From Natrinema saccharevitans (GTDB lineage Archaea > Halobacteriota > Halobacteria > Halobacteriales > Natrialbaceae), in NCBI RefSeq assembly GCF_001953745.1, contig NZ_LWLN01000001.1, forward strand, positions 1,116,001 through 1,180,000: DNA of 64,000 nt. The letters are read 5' to 3'. Numbering within the stretch: the first letter of the stretch is position 1; each line of letters opens with the position of its first letter. Below, in pieces: positions 3,481 through 58,331 of the stretch. The notes below the pieces were generated by a model. That model ran no database searches and was not told the origin of the DNA. It saw nothing but the letters and a program-made list of their open reading frames with translations. Position numbers and translations under genes: made by a program.

Positions 3481-3555
3481 GTCGGCCTCTCCCCGCCACG
3501 ACCGTCGCTTTCTATCGGGTACTCCGTCTGTAGACGGTTCTGGGAACAGTAGCTA

Positions 3556-3634
3556 TCGTAGCGACTGAAACGTTCACATACCGATCGCAACGCAGTCCTG
3601 CGAGCGGGTGTACCTCGAGTTTCAATCGCCACTA
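3556..3634. repeat. Palindromic MITE-like element, family 1, copy A
   Basis: A 79-bp element between convergent genes. Its ends (ctatcgtagcgactgaaac from 3553 and gtttcaatcgccactatag to 3637) form an imperfect inverted repeat matching at 16 of 19 positions. The terminal six bases on the right and the interior (acataccgatcgc and a tcctgcgag core) match the 80-bp copy at 9834-9913. TA dinucleotides flank both ends, as expected for a Tc1/mariner-IS630-type target duplication. It lies 72 bp after the regulator's stop codon and 71 bp before the end of the convergent glutaredoxin gene. Confidence 0.7.
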
Positions 3635-3705
3635 TAGTCGACGAACGATCACCCGTCGGACGAGAAGAGGCGACCGAAACTCGAGAAAATCGGCTCCTGT
3701 CGGCT

Positions 3706-8823: not shown

Positions 8824-9846
8824 ATGAACATGCTCGTCGACGGCGAGTGGCGAACCGACGCCTACGAGTCGACGGACGACGACGGCTCGTTCGAGCGCCA
8901 GACGTCGCCGTTCCGCGACCGCGTCCGCGACGACCCAGACGCCCGGTTCCAGCCGGAGGCGGGCCGGTATCACCTCTACGTCTCCGACGCCTGTCCGTGG
9001 GCCCACCGGACGCTCGTAACGCGGGCGCTGAAGGGCCTCGAGGACGCGATCTCGGTCTCGATCGTCGACCCCTACCGGGACGAGGACGGCTGGCAGTTCA
9101 CCCCCGAGAAGGAAGGGTGTACGCGCGATCACGTCCACGACGCCGATTCCCTGCGTGAACTGTACGTGAAAGCGGATCCCGACGCGACCTGTCGCGTCAC
9201 GGTGCCGGTACTGTGGGACACCGAGGAAGGAACCATCGTCAACAACGAGTCCGAGGAGATCATGCGGATGCTCGACACCGAGTTCGACGAATACGCTCGG
9301 CGGGACGTGGATCTCTATCCCGAGGGCTACCGGAACGAGGTGGACCGGATCATCGACGACATCTATGACCCGATCAACAACGGCGTCTACCGGGCCGGCT
9401 TCGCGACGAAGCAGGGACCCTACGACGAGGCGGTCGACGCCCTCTTCGCGGCGCTTTCCCACTGGGACGAGGTGCTGGCCGACCAGCGCTACCTCGCGGG
9501 CGACCGGCTGACCGAGGCCGACATCGCGATGTTCACGACGCTCGTCCGGTTCGATAACGTCTATCACACGCACTTCATGTGTAACGTCCAGTACATTCGC
9601 GAGTACGACAACCTCTGGCCGTACCTCCGCGACCTCTACCGAACGCCCGGCGTCGCCGAGACGGTGAACATGGCCCACATCAAAGAACACTACTACACGA
9701 CCCACCCGGACGTCAACCCCCACCGAATCGTCGCCAGGGGTCCGGACGTAGACTTCGAGCAACCCCACGACCGCGACGACCTCCCCGGCGGCCCGCCGTC
9801 GGATCTGGTCGCGGCCGCCAGCGCCGACGACTATAGTAGCTCTTGA
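8824..9846 (+). CDS. Glutathionyl-hydroquinone reductase-like GST-family protein (Gto/ECM4 type)
   Basis: About 340 residues with the Xi-class GST layout: a thioredoxin-fold domain holding the catalytic CPWAHR motif, the VPVLWD segment and a NNESEEI site, then an all-helical domain containing RYLAGDRLTEADI. The family reduces thiol-conjugated hydroquinones; in a haloarchaeon the thiol is presumably gamma-glutamylcysteine. ATG 8824 (MNMLVDGEW) is preferred; ATG 8812 would add four residues. The last four codons (YSSS) and the TGA stop come from the repeat at 9834-9913. The ancestral gene probably ended at TAG directly after Asp-Asp, because removing the repeat restores that stop. Confidence 0.85.
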   Translation: MNMLVDGEWRTDAYESTDDDGSFERQTSPFRDRVRDDPDARFQPEAGRYHLYVSDACPWAHRTLVTRALKGLEDAISVSIVDPYRDEDGWQFTPEKEGCTRDHVHDADSLRELYVKADPDATCRVTVPVLWDTEEGTIVNNESEEIMRMLDTEFDEYARRDVDLYPEGYRNEVDRIIDDIYDPINNGVYRAGFATKQGPYDEAVDALFAALSHWDEVLADQRYLAGDRLTEADIAMFTTLVRFDNVYHTHFMCNVQYIREYDNLWPYLRDLYRTPGVAETVNMAHIKEHYYTTHPDVNPHRIVARGPDVDFEQPHDRDDLPGGPPSDLVAAASADDYSSS

Positions 9847-9913
9847 AAGTCAACGCACACCCGATCGCAGGACAGCGTTGTGATCGGTGTGTAAATCGTT
9901 TCAAGAGCTACTA
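9834..9913. repeat. Palindromic MITE-like element, family 1, copy B (intact type copy)
   Basis: An 80-bp element with perfect 18-bp inverted ends when the flanking TA and outer base are included (ctatagtagctcttgaaa at 9831-9848, complement at 9899-9916). TA dinucleotides at 9832-9833 and 9914-9915 look like a 2-bp target duplication. The interior holds a second inverted motif (cacacccgatcgc versus gatcggtgtg). Its left end provides the last codons and stop of the upstream gene. No coding capacity, so it must depend on a transposase encoded elsewhere. Confidence 0.85.
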
Positions 9914-9949
9914 TAGGTCGTCCCCGAGCAGAAGAGAAATCTTGCGGCG

Positions 9950-11815: not shown

Positions 11816-12202
11816 GTGACAGCGCCCACGACGTGGGAGGTCGAACTCCGCGTCCCCGACGACGCCGACCTCGAGGCCGCCGGCGAGTCCCGAACCATCG
11901 ACGTCCGCGAGGACGAGGCGATCCTCGCGGCGGCCCGCCGGGCGGGGCTGTGGCTCTCCGCGGACTGCCAGCAGGGCTGGTGTATCACCTGCGGCGCGCG
12001 ACTGCTCGAGGGCGAGGTCGACCACAGTAACGCGAAGCGGTACTACCCCGAGGACGAGGCCGAGAACTTCGTGTTGACCTGTGTCGCCCGGCCACGCGCC
12101 GACTGCGTCGTCGTGGTCGAACAGTACGACGAACTGCTCCGCCATCGCGCCGACCACGACAGGCCGCCGGGGCGGTCGAAGCTCGGCTATAGTAGCTCTT
12201 GA
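11816..12202 (+). CDS. Plant-type [2Fe-2S] ferredoxin
   Basis: A 128-residue acidic electron carrier. The cluster ligands appear as CQQGWCITC (Cys-x4-Cys-x2-Cys, about residues 55-63) and a fourth Cys in FVLTCVARP about 30 residues later, the standard plant-type pattern. It starts at GTG 11816; no ATG lies in a suitable place. The last residues YSSS and the TGA stop derive from the left arm of a family 1 repeat. Deleting that repeat and the composite transposon inside it restores a TAG directly after Gly. A dedicated partner oxidoreductase is not adjacent. Confidence 0.88.
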   Translation: MTAPTTWEVELRVPDDADLEAAGESRTIDVREDEAILAAARRAGLWLSADCQQGWCITCGARLLEGEVDHSNAKRYYPEDEAENFVLTCVARPRADCVVVVEQYDELLRHRADHDRPPGRSKLGYSSS

Positions 12203-12204
12203 AA
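12190..12204. repeat. Family 1 MITE-like element, copy C, left part (split by the composite transposon)
   Basis: The 15 bases from tagtagctcttgaaa, preceded by TA at 12188-12189, are identical to the left end of the intact copy at 9834-9913. The rest of this copy lies 7.15 kb away at 19362-19426. Joined, the two parts give 80 bp differing from the intact copy at only two interior positions. The last seven bases (cttgaaa) are the target duplication made by the inserted transposon. Confidence 0.9.
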
Positions 12205-12354
12205 GAGGGTGTCATAGAACGAGTAGCACACCAAAGAGCAGGGTGAACGCTGTGGTGGATGAGCCCAGCGACCCTGCAAGATGATCCTTCGGTAGAGACG
12301 TTCTTCAATGTCGTGGAGACAGAGACGCTCGCGTTGTTTGAGCACCTTTCATTC
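12205..12354 (+). pseudogene. 5' fragment of an ISH11-like transposase (left boundary of island)
   Basis: Contains the IS terminal inverted repeat, its leader and the first ~32 codons of the transposase (ATG at 12259, MSPATLQDDPSVETFFNVVE and on to HLSF). Identity with the longer copy at 18386-19354 stops exactly at 12354, where unrelated sequence leading to the IS5-type transposase begins. The fragment points into the island, opposite to the right-hand copy. Confidence 0.85.
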
Positions 12355-12431
12355 TGCTCTGTTGAACAGCGGTCTAATCAGCCGATATCACTGGCTTAGA
12401 AGGATGAAGCCGAGGAATTCGATTCTGTCCT

Positions 12432-13256
12432 ATGGAAATCGATCTCCTCGACTTCATTGAGCAGTGTCGTGACCTAGCCAAACAAGCGTTGGGGAAGCAC
12501 GCGGGCGAGCCCGCCAGCGGCGGGTTCGCCCGCTGGGTCCATGTCGTCCTACACTGTTTTCGGCTCGAAGAAGGCCACAGCTACCGTGAAACGCCGAATC
12601 GGTTGAAGTATATGACCGAGGTTTGTGACGTGCTCGGTCTCGATCGAGAGAACCTCCCCGACTACAGCACGATCTACAAGTCGTTCGACCGGCTGAAAAT
12701 GTGGGTGTGGCGGGCGTTGCTGCGCGTTTCAGCGCAGCAACACCCGCAGTCTGGCCACGCTGCTCTCGACAGCACGTTCTTTGACCGCCGCCGTTCATCG
12801 TCGTACTTCCGCCAGCGGTCAGGAAATACCGTGCAGACGCTGAAAGTGACGACATTAACTGATATAGAGTCGCTCGCTGTTCTTGATGTCCATATCACAG
12901 CACGGTGGAAGCACGATACGAAGACTGGACCGCAGGTCGTCCGCCGAAACGCGGACGACCTGCAGTCCGTGGTTGCCGACAACGGGTTCCAAGACTGGCA
13001 CACTGAGTACGAAATCTCTGCACTTGACGTTGAGTACCTTGTTCACTACCGCGGCTCATCGCCGAATGCAGTCGTGAACAACGCGCTCATCCGGGCAAAA
13101 GGTTACTCTCAGCGCTGGATGGCCGAAACCTCGTACTCAACAACGAAGCGCTCGCTCGGCGACGCCGTGCGAGCGCTGGGCTGGTATCGCCAGTTCCGTA
13201 AAATTGTCTTGATGTTCACCCTCATCAATATAGAATCGCTGTGTGAACCGCTGTAA
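12432..13256 (+). CDS. IS5-family transposase
   Basis: A 274-residue DDE transposase. Candidate catalytic residues are Asp in LDSTFFDRR (about 117), Asp in VVADNGFQDW (about 182) and Glu in MAETSYSTTKRS (about 232), in the expected spacing. The length and the N-terminal block with GKHAGEPASGGFARW match complete haloarchaeal IS5-group enzymes, so the gene appears intact. Its left flank begins right after the ISH11-like fragment at 12355 (tgctctgttgaacagcgg). A weak match to the complement of acagcggt occurs near 13248-13255, but clear terminal inverted repeats could not be drawn, so one end may be lost. Confidence 0.88.
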   Translation: MEIDLLDFIEQCRDLAKQALGKHAGEPASGGFARWVHVVLHCFRLEEGHSYRETPNRLKYMTEVCDVLGLDRENLPDYSTIYKSFDRLKMWVWRALLRVSAQQHPQSGHAALDSTFFDRRRSSSYFRQRSGNTVQTLKVTTLTDIESLAVLDVHITARWKHDTKTGPQVVRRNADDLQSVVADNGFQDWHTEYEISALDVEYLVHYRGSSPNAVVNNALIRAKGYSQRWMAETSYSTTKRSLGDAVRALGWYRQFRKIVLMFTLINIESLCEPL

Positions 13257-13483
13257 CCGTGATTCAGTATCTATTCACCTATGGAAATTCTGCTGACTGA
13301 CCAAACCACGCTTGCCAAGATAATTCTTCCGGCGACGAGGACTTGCTGTAGTTTTCGAACGTAGAATCGACAACCGGCGAACCGATAGCTACTGAGACAA
13401 CCATCAGGCGGGGGATTTCTTGTTTGCGAGAGCAGTCGCTCACGCTGCCACCAACCGGCCAATGAGCGCCGCCGGAGCGGCGC

Positions 13484-14482
13484 TCAGGCACTCACCCCTG
13501 GTGGGTCGTACACCTCCTCACGATCCAGCATGTGATACATTGAAACCAGCAACTTTCGGGCGGTTGCTACAATCGCTGTCTTCGAGTTCTTTTTTCGAGC
13601 TAACCGGTTGTAGAACCGGCTGAGGTACTCGTCTTTGCACGTATGTACCGCTGAGTATGACGCTTGAACGAGCAGCCACCGGACTCGTCCTGATCCTCGC
13701 TTCGAGATGCTCCCCTCAAACCGCGAGTCGCCAGACTCGCGGATTATCGGGTTCAATCCAACGTAACTTACGACCTCTTTGGCCCGATCAAACCGGTTTA
13801 TCTCTCCCAACTCCGCGTAAATCGTCAACGCCGTAAAGTAACTCACACCAGGAATCGTCATCAGGAGCTGGGTCTCCTTCAGAGACCCAGCCCGCTCCTC
13901 GATCTCTGCTTCTAACGACTCAATCTGTTCGGTGAGCACCTGAATGAGTTCCAGATACGACTCCAACAACGCATCCCACGGGGCCGGGAGCGAGAGTTCC
14001 GCTAGGAACTCTCGTCCCTTCACACTCAACGGCTTCACCTCCCGAGTGATGCCGTGATCACTCAACAAGCCATGGATCTTGTTCGCGTACTCGGTCCGGT
14101 TCTCGACGAGCTTCTGGCGCCCGCGCACAAGTGCGCGGGCTTGCCGAACCTCGTCAGTTGGAACGTAGCTTTCAGGAATTGATCCTAACCGAACCATCCG
14201 AGCGAGTTGTTTCGCGTCAACGCGGTCAGTTTTCTTGTCCGAGTCGGAGATCAACTTCAATTCGCCGGGGTTAGCGACGGTCACATCCAGATACTCTGAA
14301 AGAGTGTCATGGATGTGGTAGTAGTTGCTGGTCGCTTCAAGCGCGGCTTTTGACCCGGCGTACTGCTGGGCGAAGTCGTCGAGGTTCGCGTTTTCGACGC
14401 GAACCTCTTCGACGATCTCACCGTTTTGGTCCAATACTGCGATTTGTGAGTACCGCTTGTGTACGTCGATTCCGATGAACAT
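13484..14482 (-). CDS. IS110-family transposase (RuvC-like DEDD recombinase)
   Basis: A 332-residue transposase with the IS110 two-domain layout. The N-terminal RuvC-like domain has Asp in GIDVHKRYSQ, Glu in AALEATSNYY and two Asp in KKTDRVDAKQLARMV. A coiled region (about 170-215) leads to a C-terminal Tnp domain with the helix-hairpin motif TIPGVSYFTALTIYAELG and the serine-containing segment RFEGSISKRGSGRVRW. All expected catalytic residues seem present. ATG 14482 (MFIGIDVHK) is the conserved start; the upstream 14 codons are not. A 9-bp hairpin (gagcgccgc/gcggcgctc, 13474-13486 region) overlaps the stop codon and may act as terminator. Confidence 0.9.
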   Translation of the reverse strand: MFIGIDVHKRYSQIAVLDQNGEIVEEVRVENANLDDFAQQYAGSKAALEATSNYYHIHDTLSEYLDVTVANPGELKLISDSDKKTDRVDAKQLARMVRLGSIPESYVPTDEVRQARALVRGRQKLVENRTEYANKIHGLLSDHGITREVKPLSVKGREFLAELSLPAPWDALLESYLELIQVLTEQIESLEAEIEERAGSLKETQLLMTIPGVSYFTALTIYAELGEINRFDRAKEVVSYVGLNPIIRESGDSRFEGSISKRGSGRVRWLLVQASYSAVHTCKDEYLSRFYNRLARKKNSKTAIVATARKLLVSMYHMLDREEVYDPPGVSA

Positions 14483-14720
14483 TGGGTTCACCTCGGGACG
14501 GTGGTGCGTGAAACAGAGATTCACCTATACGGGCTTTCCCGACTGCCGCCAGGAGCGGCAGTCGGGCTGTAATGCCCAGGACTCGGCTTCCTACGCACTT
14601 GGGCCAGTCAACAGCACGTGCTTCGGAGCACGGAATAGATCTCGGCCTCTTGCGTCCCATACTTGTTTCACGCTCTCATGGGATAGCAGGATTTCCATCG
14701 AGTCAACAGAGCAAGACTAA
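14483..14720 (-). ncRNA. Candidate IS110 left-end non-coding region (possible bridge RNA)
   Basis: This ~240-bp stretch upstream of the IS110 transposase has no credible gene. It contains a perfect 12-bp hairpin with a 5-base loop (stem 14538-14549 and 14555-14566) and a second smaller stem (gcacgtgcttcggagcac). In IS110 elements the non-coding end upstream of the recombinase gene encodes a structured guide (bridge) RNA with target- and donor-binding loops (established for IS621 and relatives). Whether this region makes such an RNA is an inference from position and structure. The element boundaries are not defined because IS110 members lack terminal inverted repeats. Confidence 0.35.
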
Positions 14721-14906
14721 CTACTCTGATCGAAGATACTGTGCTAAGGTAGACGTAATTAAATATATAATATAGAGGAGAACCCCATATGACAGGAAAA
14801 AAGATGCTTGTTGGAACCACCGAGTAGGCTGTTTCTCAAGACTATTAAGTAGTATAAATACCAATAGTGTTACTATTAGTATGAATCGATTGTTATCTTC
14901 GCTCAT
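14721..14906 (-). CDS. Small two-helix membrane protein (island cargo)
   Basis: A 61-residue protein, MSEDNNRF onward, with two hydrophobic segments (about residues 8-22 and 34-54) separated by a charged loop (SLEKQPTRW). The DNA is much richer in A and T than the core genome, and codon use is correspondingly unlike its neighbours, indicating foreign origin. It lies on the same strand and 81 bp downstream of the broken Tat-exported gene, so the two may have formed one unit. ATG 14906 is preferred to an upstream in-frame start at 14969 that adds a hydrophilic leader. No family recognised; an immunity-type or anchoring role would be speculation. Confidence 0.5.
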   Translation of the reverse strand: MSEDNNRFILIVTLLVFILLNSLEKQPTRWFQQASFFLSYGVLLYIIYLITSTLAQYLRSE

Positions 14907-14986
14907 ATGCCTAATACAATGGTCAGATGTAAAAGGTTTAAGATTTAACTCAACTCGTACGCCTATCAATATGCCTTATCCAATGG

Positions 14987-15909
14987 CTACTGGTTATCTG
15001 GTATCTCTTTTATTGCATCCGCACTCCAAGAATCAGCCTCATAGGGTACCGAAACATCAACAGAAGAAGCATTTCTTGATATGCTAGTATTTAAAATTGG
15101 GTCAAATTGTGAAATATTTCCGATTGACCACGTATGCTCAAATAGTGTCTGAATATTTGTAGGTCCATCAGACTGACGTTCAATATGCACCTCTGCAGAG
15201 CCATACTGTCTTTTCGGCCAATATACATGAACTCCATCCGACTCTTGTGCATGGTCGAAGATCCGGAAACCGATGCCATTGTTGAAATCACCGATGAGCG
15301 GGCCGTCAGACACCTCCATATAATCAACGTACTTTCCACCCTCTAGTTGATGACCGTTCCTATGCGTCACAGTTTCTGTTGGCATATCATACACATGCGA
15401 TACCTGATATTTAAGTGACCCCCCCCTTGTCATATTTGAAATGTGAGTCATCTCATGCCAAGATCAGTCCATCTGTAGGCTCCGGCCCGTCGATATCAGA
15501 ATTGCGGTTGAAATCCCAGCTCACACTCAGATGCCAGACCCCATCCGTATCCGTTTCATACAGAATGGTGTGGATATCATCAGAACCTGGTTTTGTGAAA
15601 AAGTCCTGAGTTGAAACACCACCCCCCATTCTCTTCTGAGTCTAATGCAGTGGGGTCCTTCGAAATAGGAACAGACTGTTCGGCATGGAGGTGTGGAACG
15701 CCGGCTTTCTTCAGGACTGAGACTGCTTTTGAGGGTTGGTTTTCGTGAATCAGCGCTTCTGCCTTTTGGCGAGCATTGTTGTTTTCGCTTAATTTTCCAG
15801 CGCTGGCCGCGCTTGTCATACCCGTTGCCCCAGCAGTGCTGAGGAGGAGGGCGGATGTTTTAAGAGCGGTTCGTCTTTTCAGGGATCGGCCTGAGCTTCT
15901 ATTAGACAT
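14987..15909 (-). pseudogene. Frameshifted Tat-exported protein of unknown function (island cargo)
   Basis: The gene starts at ATG 15909 with a clear twin-arginine signal (SLKRRTALKTSALLL, then ASAG). The first frame ends at a stop near 15580, but the protein resumes in another frame from a poly-G tract at about 15627 (GVSTQDFFTKPGSDDIHT and onward to DGLILA). A second shift near 15455 leads into the last frame, which encodes 154 residues to 14987. Near this junction the last frame reads WHEMTHISN, formally a HExxH sequence, though this may be accidental. The G runs (6 and 8 bases) could be slippage sites or sequencing errors. Low GC. If intact it would be a ~300-residue exported protein. Confidence 0.6.
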
Positions 15910-16160
15910 CCGGTTAGTAATAATTAGTTCTAATACTAAAATATTACTGTTTGAACTAAGTCGTTAATAGATAAACTTCTATCACCTACCGAATCTCGAT
16001 ACTCGTTACCAGAGATTGGAGATAAGGTTATATCGATCATTCCTGCTATTTTGTAGAATTAAAGTTAATTTGTGGATATAAGGACGAATAGGGGCAAAGA
16101 GATACCACCAATCATGGGTAGGTGAAATTGTTTCGCGCACTATTCTACTATCAATACTCT

Positions 16161-16748
16161 TCAGAGCCAACTAACTTTCTGGCGCTCTCGTTGCTGCACT
16201 TCAGGACTGTAGCTGCCCCGATAATGCTCGAGGAAGGTCTCGAGGTCGTTCCATCCACCCCAGTCGCACACCAGAAGCGGGTCGACATCTTCCGAGGCAA
16301 GTGCAGTCGCCCAGGTCCGTCGGAGATCGTGGAACCCGAGGTGATCCCAGCCGGCATCTCCTGTCTCGTCGTGCAATTGATCTGCCGCCGATCGCACCCA
16401 CCGCCGGAGTGACCGTGTACTCGTGATCTCGACGAGCGACGAGCTGGTCGGTGCGTCGCGCACGTCGTCGACCGTCCGGATGGTCGTCGCGAGATCTCGC
16501 GGGACCGGCGTCTCTCGAAACTTGTCACCCTTCCCGTGCCAGACGCGGAGCATCGTCCCAGCGTCGGTATCGACGATGTCCTCCGGTGCAACGTCGAGGA
16601 CTTCGTGTGAGCGGAGCCCGCATCGCGCCCCAAGTGCAAACGCGATCCGCTGCTGGGTATCGTCGGCCGCCTCGAGCAATTGTTCTACTTCGTTCTGGCT
16701 GAGCCAGACCTTCATGTCGTCGCGGTTCTCGTGCTGTTGCAGATTCAT
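16161..16748 (-). CDS. Tyrosine recombinase (catalytic-domain-only integrase)
   Basis: A 195-residue phage-integrase/XerD-like enzyme lacking the usual N-terminal core-binding domain. Visible catalytic residues are Arg in GARCGLRSHEVLDV (about 47), Lys in WHGKGDKFRETPVP (about 75), His and Arg in FHDLRRTWAT (about 142-145), a Trp replacing the second His (GGWNDLETF) and the nucleophile Tyr in LEHYRG (about 177). The active site looks complete. Related short integrases occur in many haloarchaeal genomes and plasmids. It may have integrated or resolved the element whose remnants surround it. GC content is closer to the host than the flanking cargo. Confidence 0.85.
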   Translation of the reverse strand: MNLQQHENRDDMKVWLSQNEVEQLLEAADDTQQRIAFALGARCGLRSHEVLDVAPEDIVDTDAGTMLRVWHGKGDKFRETPVPRDLATTIRTVDDVRDAPTSSSLVEITSTRSLRRWVRSAADQLHDETGDAGWDHLGFHDLRRTWATALASEDVDPLLVCDWGGWNDLETFLEHYRGSYSPEVQQRERQKVSWL

Positions 16749-16925
16749 GCGTCCGGGTTGCCTGCATTCCGGACAAAAACCGCTAGCAATCTAGTTCTTT
16801 CGGTGGTCCTCAAGGGGGAGATCGGGGTGATTCTGTCCGACTCTACTGCAGTTCTCGGACAGGTGGCTTTGGTAAGTAATTATGTTGGACCAACATAGTA
16901 TGTAGAACAGGAGAAAGTACGGACG

Positions 16926-29036: not shown

Positions 29037-30560
29037 ATGACTGATGGGCGGGGCGAGACTCCCCGGCGAACAGGAATGACCGAAAAGTGCGGCGTCGTCG
29101 GCGTCTCACTCGACGGTCGGGACGCGGCACGGCCGTTGTACTACGCGCTGTACGCACTCCAACACCGGGGACAGGAGTCCGCAGGCATCGTCACACACGA
29201 CGGGTTCCAGCAGCACAGCCACGTCGAAATGGGGCTCGTGGGAGACGCCTTCGACGAGGGCGACCTCGAGACGCTCAACGGGTCGGCCGGGATCGGCCAC
29301 GTCCGATATCCGACGGCCGGCTCGGTCGACTCCTCGTGTGCCCAGCCGTTCTCCGTCTCCTTCAAGAGCGGCTCGCTCGGGCTGAGTCACAACGGCAACC
29401 TCGTCAACGCCGACGAGATCCGCGAGGAACTCGCCAGCGCGGGCCATGCCTTCACCAGCGACGGCGACACCGAGGTCATCGCCCACGACCTCGCGCGCAA
29501 CCTGCTCGAGGAGGATCTGGTACGAGCCGTCAAGGACACGATGACGCGGATTCACGGCTCTTACTCGCTGACGATTACCCACGACGATACCGTCCTCGGC
29601 GTGCGCGACCCGCGGGGCAATCGCCCGCTCTGTATCGGGAAACTCGAGGACGGCTACATACTCGCCTCGGAGTCGGCGGCGATCGACACCTTGGACGGGG
29701 ACCTCGTCCGCGACGTACGGCCGGGCGAACTGGTCGTCCTGCAGGACGACGGCGGGGGCTTCGACTCCTACCAGCTCGTCGAGAAGGACAACACCGCCCA
29801 CTGTTTCTTCGAACACGTCTACTTCGCCCGCCCCGACAGCGTCATCGACGACACGCTGGTCTACGAGGCCCGCCGGAACCTCGGCCGCAAGCTCTGGGAG
29901 GAAAGCGGCGTCGAGACCGATGTGGTGATGCCGGTCCCCGACTCCGGGCGCGCGTTCGCCTCGGGCTACGCGGACGCGGCGAGCGAGACCACCGCCGACG
30001 GCGAGGCCCGCGACGCCGACGACGACGGCGTCGCGTTCGCCGAGGGCCTGATGAAGAACCGCTACGTCGGTCGCACGTTCATCATGCCGACGCAGGACGA
30101 ACGCGAGCGCGCGGTGCGGCTCAAACTCAACCCGATCAAGTCGACGATCGAGGGCAAGACCGTCACCGTCATCGACGACTCGATCGTCCGCGGCACCACG
30201 TCGACGCAGCTCGTCCAACTCCTCAAAGACTGCGGGGCCGAGGCGGTCCACGTTCGCATCGGCGCGCCCGCCATCGTCGCCCCCTGTTACATGGGGATCG
30301 ACATGGCCACCCGCGAGGAACTCATCGCCTCGGACAAGTCCGTCGGCGAGATCCGCGACGAGATCGCCGCCGACAGCCTCGCCTACCTCTCGACCGACGC
30401 CGTCGCCGACATCCTCGGGAAAGAGCGCATCGACCTCTGTCTGGGCTGTGTCACCGGCGAGTACCCCTACGACATCGAGGGCGAGGAGACCGACCGCGAC
30501 GTCAGCCGGCCCGACGTCGGCGACCAACGACTCACCACGGCCGACTATAGTAGCCACTGA
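29037..30560 (+). CDS. purF: Amidophosphoribosyltransferase PurF
   Basis: PurF catalyses the first step of purine synthesis, converting PRPP and glutamine to phosphoribosylamine. The class II glutaminase domain begins at the nucleophilic Cys in MTEKCGVVGVSL; SHNGNLVNA is also visible. The phosphoribosyltransferase domain carries VTVIDDSIVRGTTS (PRPP loop). A cysteine pair in LCLGCVTGEYPYD near the C terminus fits the Fe-S-type (Bacillus-like) branch. ATG 29037 gives a short propeptide before the Cys; ATG 29076 would put Cys at position 5. The C terminus ADYSSH and stop TGA come from a family 1 repeat. Confidence 0.93.
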   Translation: MTDGRGETPRRTGMTEKCGVVGVSLDGRDAARPLYYALYALQHRGQESAGIVTHDGFQQHSHVEMGLVGDAFDEGDLETLNGSAGIGHVRYPTAGSVDSSCAQPFSVSFKSGSLGLSHNGNLVNADEIREELASAGHAFTSDGDTEVIAHDLARNLLEEDLVRAVKDTMTRIHGSYSLTITHDDTVLGVRDPRGNRPLCIGKLEDGYILASESAAIDTLDGDLVRDVRPGELVVLQDDGGGFDSYQLVEKDNTAHCFFEHVYFARPDSVIDDTLVYEARRNLGRKLWEESGVETDVVMPVPDSGRAFASGYADAASETTADGEARDADDDGVAFAEGLMKNRYVGRTFIMPTQDERERAVRLKLNPIKSTIEGKTVTVIDDSIVRGTTSTQLVQLLKDCGAEAVHVRIGAPAIVAPCYMGIDMATREELIASDKSVGEIRDEIAADSLAYLSTDAVADILGKERIDLCLGCVTGEYPYDIEGEETDRDVSRPDVGDQRLTTADYSSH

Positions 30561-30619
30561 AACGATTCACACACTGATCGCGCCGCTGTCATGCGATCAG
30601 GTGTGCGATGACTTTTCGG
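30548..30619. repeat. Family 1 MITE-like element, copy E (right end eroded)
   Basis: Starts with tagtagccactgaaacgatt after TA (30546-30547), followed by cacacactgatcgc, a short spacer and gatcaggtgtgcgat. This is the interior of the family, but the expected right terminal repeat is absent after about 30619. It provides the last four codons and TGA stop of purF and lies between convergent genes. Confidence 0.7.
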
Positions 30620-33020: not shown

Positions 33021-33071
33021 TCGTCACGGGGAGCGACCGGCTCTCCGTCCCGACCGCGCTCCGGCCCCTGA

Positions 33072-33151
33072 TACGGATTGCTGTCCCGATGTCCCGGCGC
33101 ACCCGCCGCCCGGGTCGCGGGTGCGCCGGCAATGACTGACAGGAAACCGTA
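33072..33151. repeat. Palindromic MITE-like element, family 2
   Basis: An 80-bp element, tacggattgctgtcccgatg at left and gacaggaaaccgta at right, with the same inner GC-rich hairpin as the copy at 22574. TGA triplets flank it at 33069-33071 and 33152-33154. It sits 51 bp after the tautomerase stop and 37 bp before the UspA start, and is the only clear family 2 copy not on a stop codon. Confidence 0.8.
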
Positions 33152-33188
33152 TGAAACCACTATCCGTCTCGCGCCCGAAGCCGTTCGT

Positions 33189-50739: not shown

Positions 50740-50860
50740 TGGTTTACGATACGTCGAGGCCGCACTTAAAGAGTCGGCTCGCTTTCAGTCGGCCGGACGA
50801 AACATCCGACGTCGTCGGCGGCCGGTCCGTCTGGTCGGGACGCTCGAGACCGACCGGTCA

Positions 50861-50939
50861 TACGGACTGGTGTAACGATGTCCCGACGCAACCGCCGCCC
50901 GGGTGCGGTTGCGCCGGCAATGACTGACAGTAAACCGTC
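50861..50939. repeat. Palindromic MITE-like element, family 2, on the rpoF stop codon
   Basis: A 79-bp element beginning tacggactggtgtaacgatg and ending gacagtaaaccgtc, with the inner hairpin ggcgcaaccgcc-type stem. Flanking triplets are tca at 50858-50860 and tca at 50940-50942, a perfect direct repeat. The latter is the TGA stop of rpoF on the minus strand. Confidence 0.82.
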
Positions 50940-57995: not shown

Positions 57996-58331
57996 GACGT
58001 GCGGTGGCGCACGCTGTCGACTGCTCGAGTGAGAACGAGAGCAGTCGACGACACCGTGCGAGGGATGAGTGAACGCCGCCAGGCGTGAACGAATCGGTTG
58101 GGGAGGGTGTGGAGACTCCGTGCAGCCACGATAGCAGAACGACCCTCTCCTTCCCAACATCGCAGTCGATACGGACTTCCCTGCTATCGTGGCAACGGGG
58201 AATAACCACGTCCTCCCCAGCCGATTCGCTCTCTCCTTTCAGTCGGTCGCTCATCCCTCGCGCAGAGTCGTGTCGCGGTTCGTTACTCACTCACCGCGAC
58301 ACAGCGCGCGCCACCGCACGCCGGGTGGTCG
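57996..58331. repeat. Long imperfect inverted repeat (about 336 bp)
   Basis: Three paired arm segments are visible: gacgtgcggtggcgc (57996 on) with gcgcgccaccgcacgcc (58315-58331); tgcgagggatgagt (58057-58070) with gctcatccctcgcg (58249-58262); and gaacgaatcggttgggga (from 58087) with its partner in 58207-58232. A perfect 13-bp inner pair gccacgatagcag/ctgctatcgtggc (58124-58136, 58181-58193) is near the centre. A separate 10-bp hairpin (tcgactgctc) is near 58017-58049. The structure fills most of the 513-bp gap between the oxidoreductase and the thioesterase. It is non-coding and looks like a MITE or degenerate IS remnant. Confidence 0.65.

Follow-up and report, generated by a model that had tools for sequence, protein, structure and literature searches.

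The 80-bp palindromic repeats of Natrinema saccharevitans very probably constitute a MITE of the IS630/Tc1-mariner type, mobilized in trans by an IS630-family DDE transposase and inserted into TA dinucleotides, preferably those of CTAG. This assignment, proposed in an earlier note on a single stretch of the genome, is supported by empty sites, by duplication of TA, by the lack of conservation of the occupied loci, and by the presence of similar IS630 elements in relatives. The stretch, further referred to as the window, comprises 64,000 nucleotides (G000:C1:1116001-1180000, 66.6% G+C) of a 3.98-Mb genome. The elements are short (80 bp), non-coding and dispersed, with many near-identical copies among about 100 elements; they have inverted ends and a target duplication proved via empty sites. 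The target is TA, and it is duplicated, as in IS630/Tc1-mariner elements.

All five copies previously listed for the window are present and can be read directly from the sequence. The intact copy, an 80-bp member of subfamily A with more than 40 genomic copies, occupies positions 9834..9913 of the minus strand, given with the CGATTTAC end taken as the left one. It consists of TAGTAGCTCTTGAAA-GTCAACGCACACCCGATCGCAGGACAGCGTTGTGATCGGTGTGTAAATCG-TTTCAAGAGCTACTA with one TA at each side (9832-9833 and 9914-9915), so the reported TA flanks were indeed found. The perfect 18-bp inverted end (CTATAGTAGCTCTTGAAA and TTTCAAGAGCTACTATAG) is also seen, with the flanking C-TA and TA-G counted in. Another subfamily-A copy on the minus strand is split: its first 15 bp lie at 12190..12204, and the other 65 bp, at 19362..19426, starting after the second CTTGAAA (19355-19361) and ending at the TA at 19427-19428. 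The first CTTGAAA (12198-12204) forms the last 7 bp of the 15-bp piece, and the two together are the target duplication of the interrupting island. Once this 7-bp duplication is removed, the reassembled copy is exactly 80 bp long with two differences, in agreement with the earlier description. A decayed copy at 3556..3634 (minus strand) is flanked by TA at 3554-3555 and 3635-3636. A further decayed copy, at 22561..22724 (plus strand), contains a different palindromic repeat (approximately 22566-22656). Finally, the copy at 30548..30619 (plus strand) belongs to subfamily B; its left end is intact, and its right end is truncated.

The region 12205-19354 is a nested mobile-gene island inserted into the split copy with the 7-bp target duplication CTTGAAA. 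Its arms form a 171-bp inverted repeat (12199-12369 and 19190-19360; 95% complementary). The island encodes two DDE_Tnp_1, an IS110 and an IS1595 transposase, and a tyrosine recombinase, the DDE_Tnp_1 type being IS4/IS5-like.

Empty sites were sought in genomes of the same genus, the query for the intact copy being the window segment 9000-10800. Two congeners, G006 and G026, match query positions 1-834 and 915-1801, and the matches overlap by exactly two bases. Both genomes read GCCGACGACTAGGTCGTCC, that is, one TA versus TA-element-TA in the window. The cleanest empty site among those of all window copies is GACGACTAGGTCG at 9834, and the 9834 site is also empty in Natrinema mahii (G004), which has the same CTAG. 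The 12190 site reads CTCGGCTAGACC in G004 (CTCGGCTAG) and is likewise empty in G006 and G026. At the 22561 site, G006 and G026 have the empty sequence GCCTAGAA; G004 is occupied by an element at the same place, hence this insertion seems to predate the split from G004. Three congeners retain a single TA within GACTAAC (GACTAACG or GACTAACA) at the 30548 site, and a single TA is found in G026 at the 3556 site. Therefore each of the five window sites is empty in congeners with one TA, and this demonstrates both the boundaries of the mobile unit and its insertion with duplication of TA, as the earlier note had anticipated. Recent and older insertions coexist, several being younger than the species splits.

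These observations bear on the reading of the repeats not as a transposon but as a conserved hairpin of RNA or regulatory nature (REP-like or a terminator). The element does have a predicted stable hairpin, and its two arms co-vary, but exact TA duplications with empty sites are foreign to such a reading. The window yielded no Rfam match at gathering scores (0 matches). Conservation at the same loci in all relatives, which the earlier note would have held against a transposon, was not observed: between species, only one site is shared. We therefore consider this reading highly improbable; a secondary RNA or regulatory role of the MITE hairpin is possible.

The genome-wide search proposed in the earlier note was performed with the 80-bp element as a BLAST query. 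It produced 61 matches in this genome, distributed over C1 (3.47 Mb) and C2 (0.42 Mb); owing to the palindromic sequence, some copies were matched on both strands. The 15-bp end, exact or with one mismatch, occurs 82 times in the genome, and the end pattern TATAGTAGCNNNTGAAA, 206 times; the respective reversed controls gave 0. Hence the 206 ends correspond to about 100 elements, of which 78 well-preserved ones were used for detailed analysis. Subfamily A, with TCT at the variable place, contains about 43 near-identical copies (mostly 95–99% identity), 30 on C1 and 13 on C2 by a hand count of places. Subfamily B has CGC, CAC and others at this place and is more diverse than A. Per base, the density of subfamily A on C2 is approximately 3.6 times that on C1, which may reflect the route of entry or weaker selection on C2. 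In total, the family was matched in 73 of 149 genomes (this one and its relatives) representing 24 of 59 genera, and on 40 plasmid records from Haloarcula, Natrinema, Natronorubrum, Halomicrobium and others; the phage records searched gave no match. Relatives hold additional subfamilies as well as longer forms of 108, 117 and 151 bp. The longer forms (L165, L166, L170, L176, L184, L193-L195) have the same ends and an extra hairpin in the centre; the middle of the element is thus replaceable.

Joined sites reveal a strong target preference: 49 of 77 copies are at CTAG versus 15 of 1124 (1.3%) background TAs in the window. Four of the five window copies (9834, 12190, 22561 and 30548) hit a TAG or TAA stop codon. 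Moreover, insertion into a stop creates the frame TAT AGT AGC NNN TGA, and TGA is present in that frame at both ends of 92% of distinct elements, the IS relatives having TAG at the same codon. One might conclude that insertion is directed to stop codons and that the element brings a built-in stop with it, as a selected safe-landing device. Genome-wide, however, 14 of 77 copies fall at predicted gene ends, not above the 19 of 77 for background CTAG sites (46 of 1124 for TAs); these figures are rough, given that the classifier found 83% of training gene ends and called 20% of random positions, yet a second, stricter classifier gave the same answer. Thus, the targeting of stop codons to which the window copies pointed was rejected on the genome scale. 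The hits at stop codons are explained by the CTAG preference, as CTAG in this genome often represents a C-TAG stop. As to the built-in stop, the TGA is part of the conserved end, where recognition may be its only role; at the right end of the IS, these bases supply the stop codon of the transposase itself. Overall, a device directed at stop codons seems quite unlikely. For annotation, it matters that a protein whose TAG stop is hit by an insertion ends in four extra residues, Tyr-Ser-Ser-X, and that MITE copies can give rise to false ORFs. A risk of mis-annotation is seen in the ORFs 3417-4781 of L031 and 2817-3143 of L315, where the MITE is read as the peptide NRFKSYY.

The earlier note had predicted an autonomous relative of the element. 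Similar IS630 elements exist in related genomes: they are 1055 bp long (1059 bp including both TAs), contain two overlapping ORFs with HTH_33 and DDE_3, and are named ISNpe3 and ISNamo16 in plasmid-record annotation. Their ends are TATAGTAaCCGTTAGAAcTTT.. and TATAGTAGacGTTAGAAaTAATTGCTCAC, with the tip TATAGTA. Of 26 copies in one set, 22 reside at CTAG, as do 46 of 64 scored copies in another. When the MITE ends TATAGTAGCNNNTGAAACGATTTACACACC and TATAGTAGCNNNTGAAAGTCAATGCACACC are aligned to the IS ends, the boxes are in register. With a weight matrix built from the MITE ends, even without the TATAGTA tip, the right ends of the IS outscore at least 99.6% of background TA sites; for the left ends, the figure is at least 98%. 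The MITE and ISNpe3/ISNamo16 have in common the tip, the TA duplication, the CTAG target, the N3 spacer, and equally spaced TT-RR-AA and subterminal CAC boxes. The left/right asymmetry TAGTAAC versus TAGTAGC is shared by ISNpe3/ISNamo16 and some MITE subfamilies. Unlike the MITE, these IS are autonomous 1055-bp elements with two overlapping ORFs and ends without co-variation, and positions 12-17 from TA read TTAGAA in the IS versus TTGAAA in the MITE. At positions 13-15 (TAG in the IS, TGA in the MITE) there are almost no exceptions. With end sequences that are not identical in this respect (TTGAAA versus TTAGAA), direct derivation of the MITE by deletion from ISNpe3/ISNamo16 was rejected. The prediction therefore stands in part: relatives carry IS630 elements that target CTAG and have TATAGTA ends laid out in the same way, but they have TTAGAA and not TTGAAA, and the genome of N. 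saccharevitans itself has no match to Pfam DDE_3, HTH_33 or ISNpe3-group DNA.

A partner with exactly matching ends was searched for in several ways. A DDE_3 search of 149 genomes was part of this, and no element combining a DDE_3 gene with TGAAA ends was found. No such partner was retrieved with an end pattern designed to leave MITEs out, with ISNpe3-group DNA in the genus, in other IS630 subgroups, in one scan of GTDB genomes and one of viral contigs, or via single-ended MITE copies in five congeners. The candidates inspected turned out to be MITEs, nested MITEs, or IS with other ends. Thus, the candidate in G003 consists of two MITEs 1.1 kb apart flanking a gene, and the one in L315 is a MITE next to an IS remnant. 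The MITE looks orphaned: about 40 near-identical copies make up a recent burst, and no matching transposase was detected. Its helper would be a sister of the ISNpe3 group, either lost from this genome or met only on another replicon; in our reading, such a sister is absent or rare in the genomes examined. Alternatively, no helper is missing, and the known transposase of the ISNpe3/ISNamo16 group moves the MITE directly, tolerating TTGAAA for TTAGAA. The common tip, spacing, subterminal CAC box and CTAG target agree with this, as does N. mahii, the closest relative seen, which carries both these IS and copies of subfamily A. On the other hand, the two-base difference is fixed on either side, and many MITE-bearing genomes, including the one studied here, show no such IS. 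We regard direct mobilization by ISNpe3/ISNamo16 as a genuine possibility, if on balance a doubtful one.

Whichever the helper, a DDE transposase of the IS630 family, provided in trans, would bind both ends of roughly 27 bp, TAGTAR-N3/4-TGAAA-N6-RCNCAC. The 80-bp element would then be cut out and pasted into a TA, preferably that of CTAG, with duplication of TA. The cut-and-paste chemistry is assumed by analogy with published work on ISY100, for which purified transposase alone is sufficient and insertion occurs at TA with its duplication (PMC2170065). For the same element, 30 bp of each end are as good as the whole element (PMC2170065). The title of Tenzen and Ohtsubo 1991, cited in PMC2170065, indicates that IS630 favours TA in CTAG. 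The MITE possesses in cis everything that movement of this type needs, and it would be moved in trans by such an enzyme. ISY100 and IS630 duplicate TA as the MITE does, but they come from bacteria and are autonomous, encoding a transposase of their own.

The element is predicted to fold as a near-continuous hairpin. Inside it, CGATTTA faces CATTGAC in a conserved stretch where most bases are mismatched; the MITE ends can therefore be told apart, as can those of the IS. Outside this stretch, variable positions of the arms agree beyond expectation. At positions 10-12, agreement between the arms was observed in 74, 89 and 92% of 122 distinct elements, compared to 38, 33 and 50% expected from composition. 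For 57 distinct IS, there is little excess (observed versus expected: 67 vs 61, 49 vs 46 and 72 vs 64%). The inner-stem pairs 30-54 and 31-53 exceed all 300 shuffles. The counts of arm agreement are inflated by relatedness within subfamilies, yet several different arm-matched triplets occur. Since the arms co-vary across subfamilies, unlike the ends of the IS, the palindrome itself is kept. The simplest account would be that it is maintained through a hairpin or cruciform with arm-to-arm correction, beyond recognition by the transposase alone. A broader suggestion is that the hairpin functions in the life cycle of the element, either by such mutual correction of the arms or because the folded form is needed for mobility; it is tentative, and we consider it rather improbable.

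Among bacterial MITEs of the IS630 type, the RUP element of Streptococcus pneumoniae is comparable: it is palindromic, about 100 bp long, duplicates TA, and uses an IS630 transposase in trans. The sequences and hosts are different, and for RUP a helper with near-identical ends is known. In Haloquadratum, MITEs, PATEs and SMRs are short mobile repeats that lack a transposase and outnumber complete transposons (PMC3119063). PATEs have neither inverted ends nor a target duplication, and SMRs have no target duplication (PMC3119063). Accordingly, a PATE-like derivative of IS200/IS605 was rejected for our element, which has inverted ends and a target duplication, and so was an SMR, given the duplication of TA. 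In the literature collection searched, nothing specific on haloarchaeal IS630 MITEs was found. The family is new, large and haloarchaeal, although this kind of element is already known, and its CTAG-directed insertion is now defined through empty sites. The features worth following are the recent burst with no helper detected and the co-varying arms, the latter making the element a good test object for the upkeep of symmetry in palindromic MITEs.

The window also contains other inverted repeats. A second palindromic family of about 90 bp, TACGGATTGCTGTCCCGAT...AAACCGT, is represented at 22566-22656, 33064-33154 and 50850-50904, the first member being situated within the MITE at 22561. In addition, a repeat search revealed a long imperfect inverted repeat at 58081-58237, with 57-nt arms that are 77% complementary and spaced by 43 nt.
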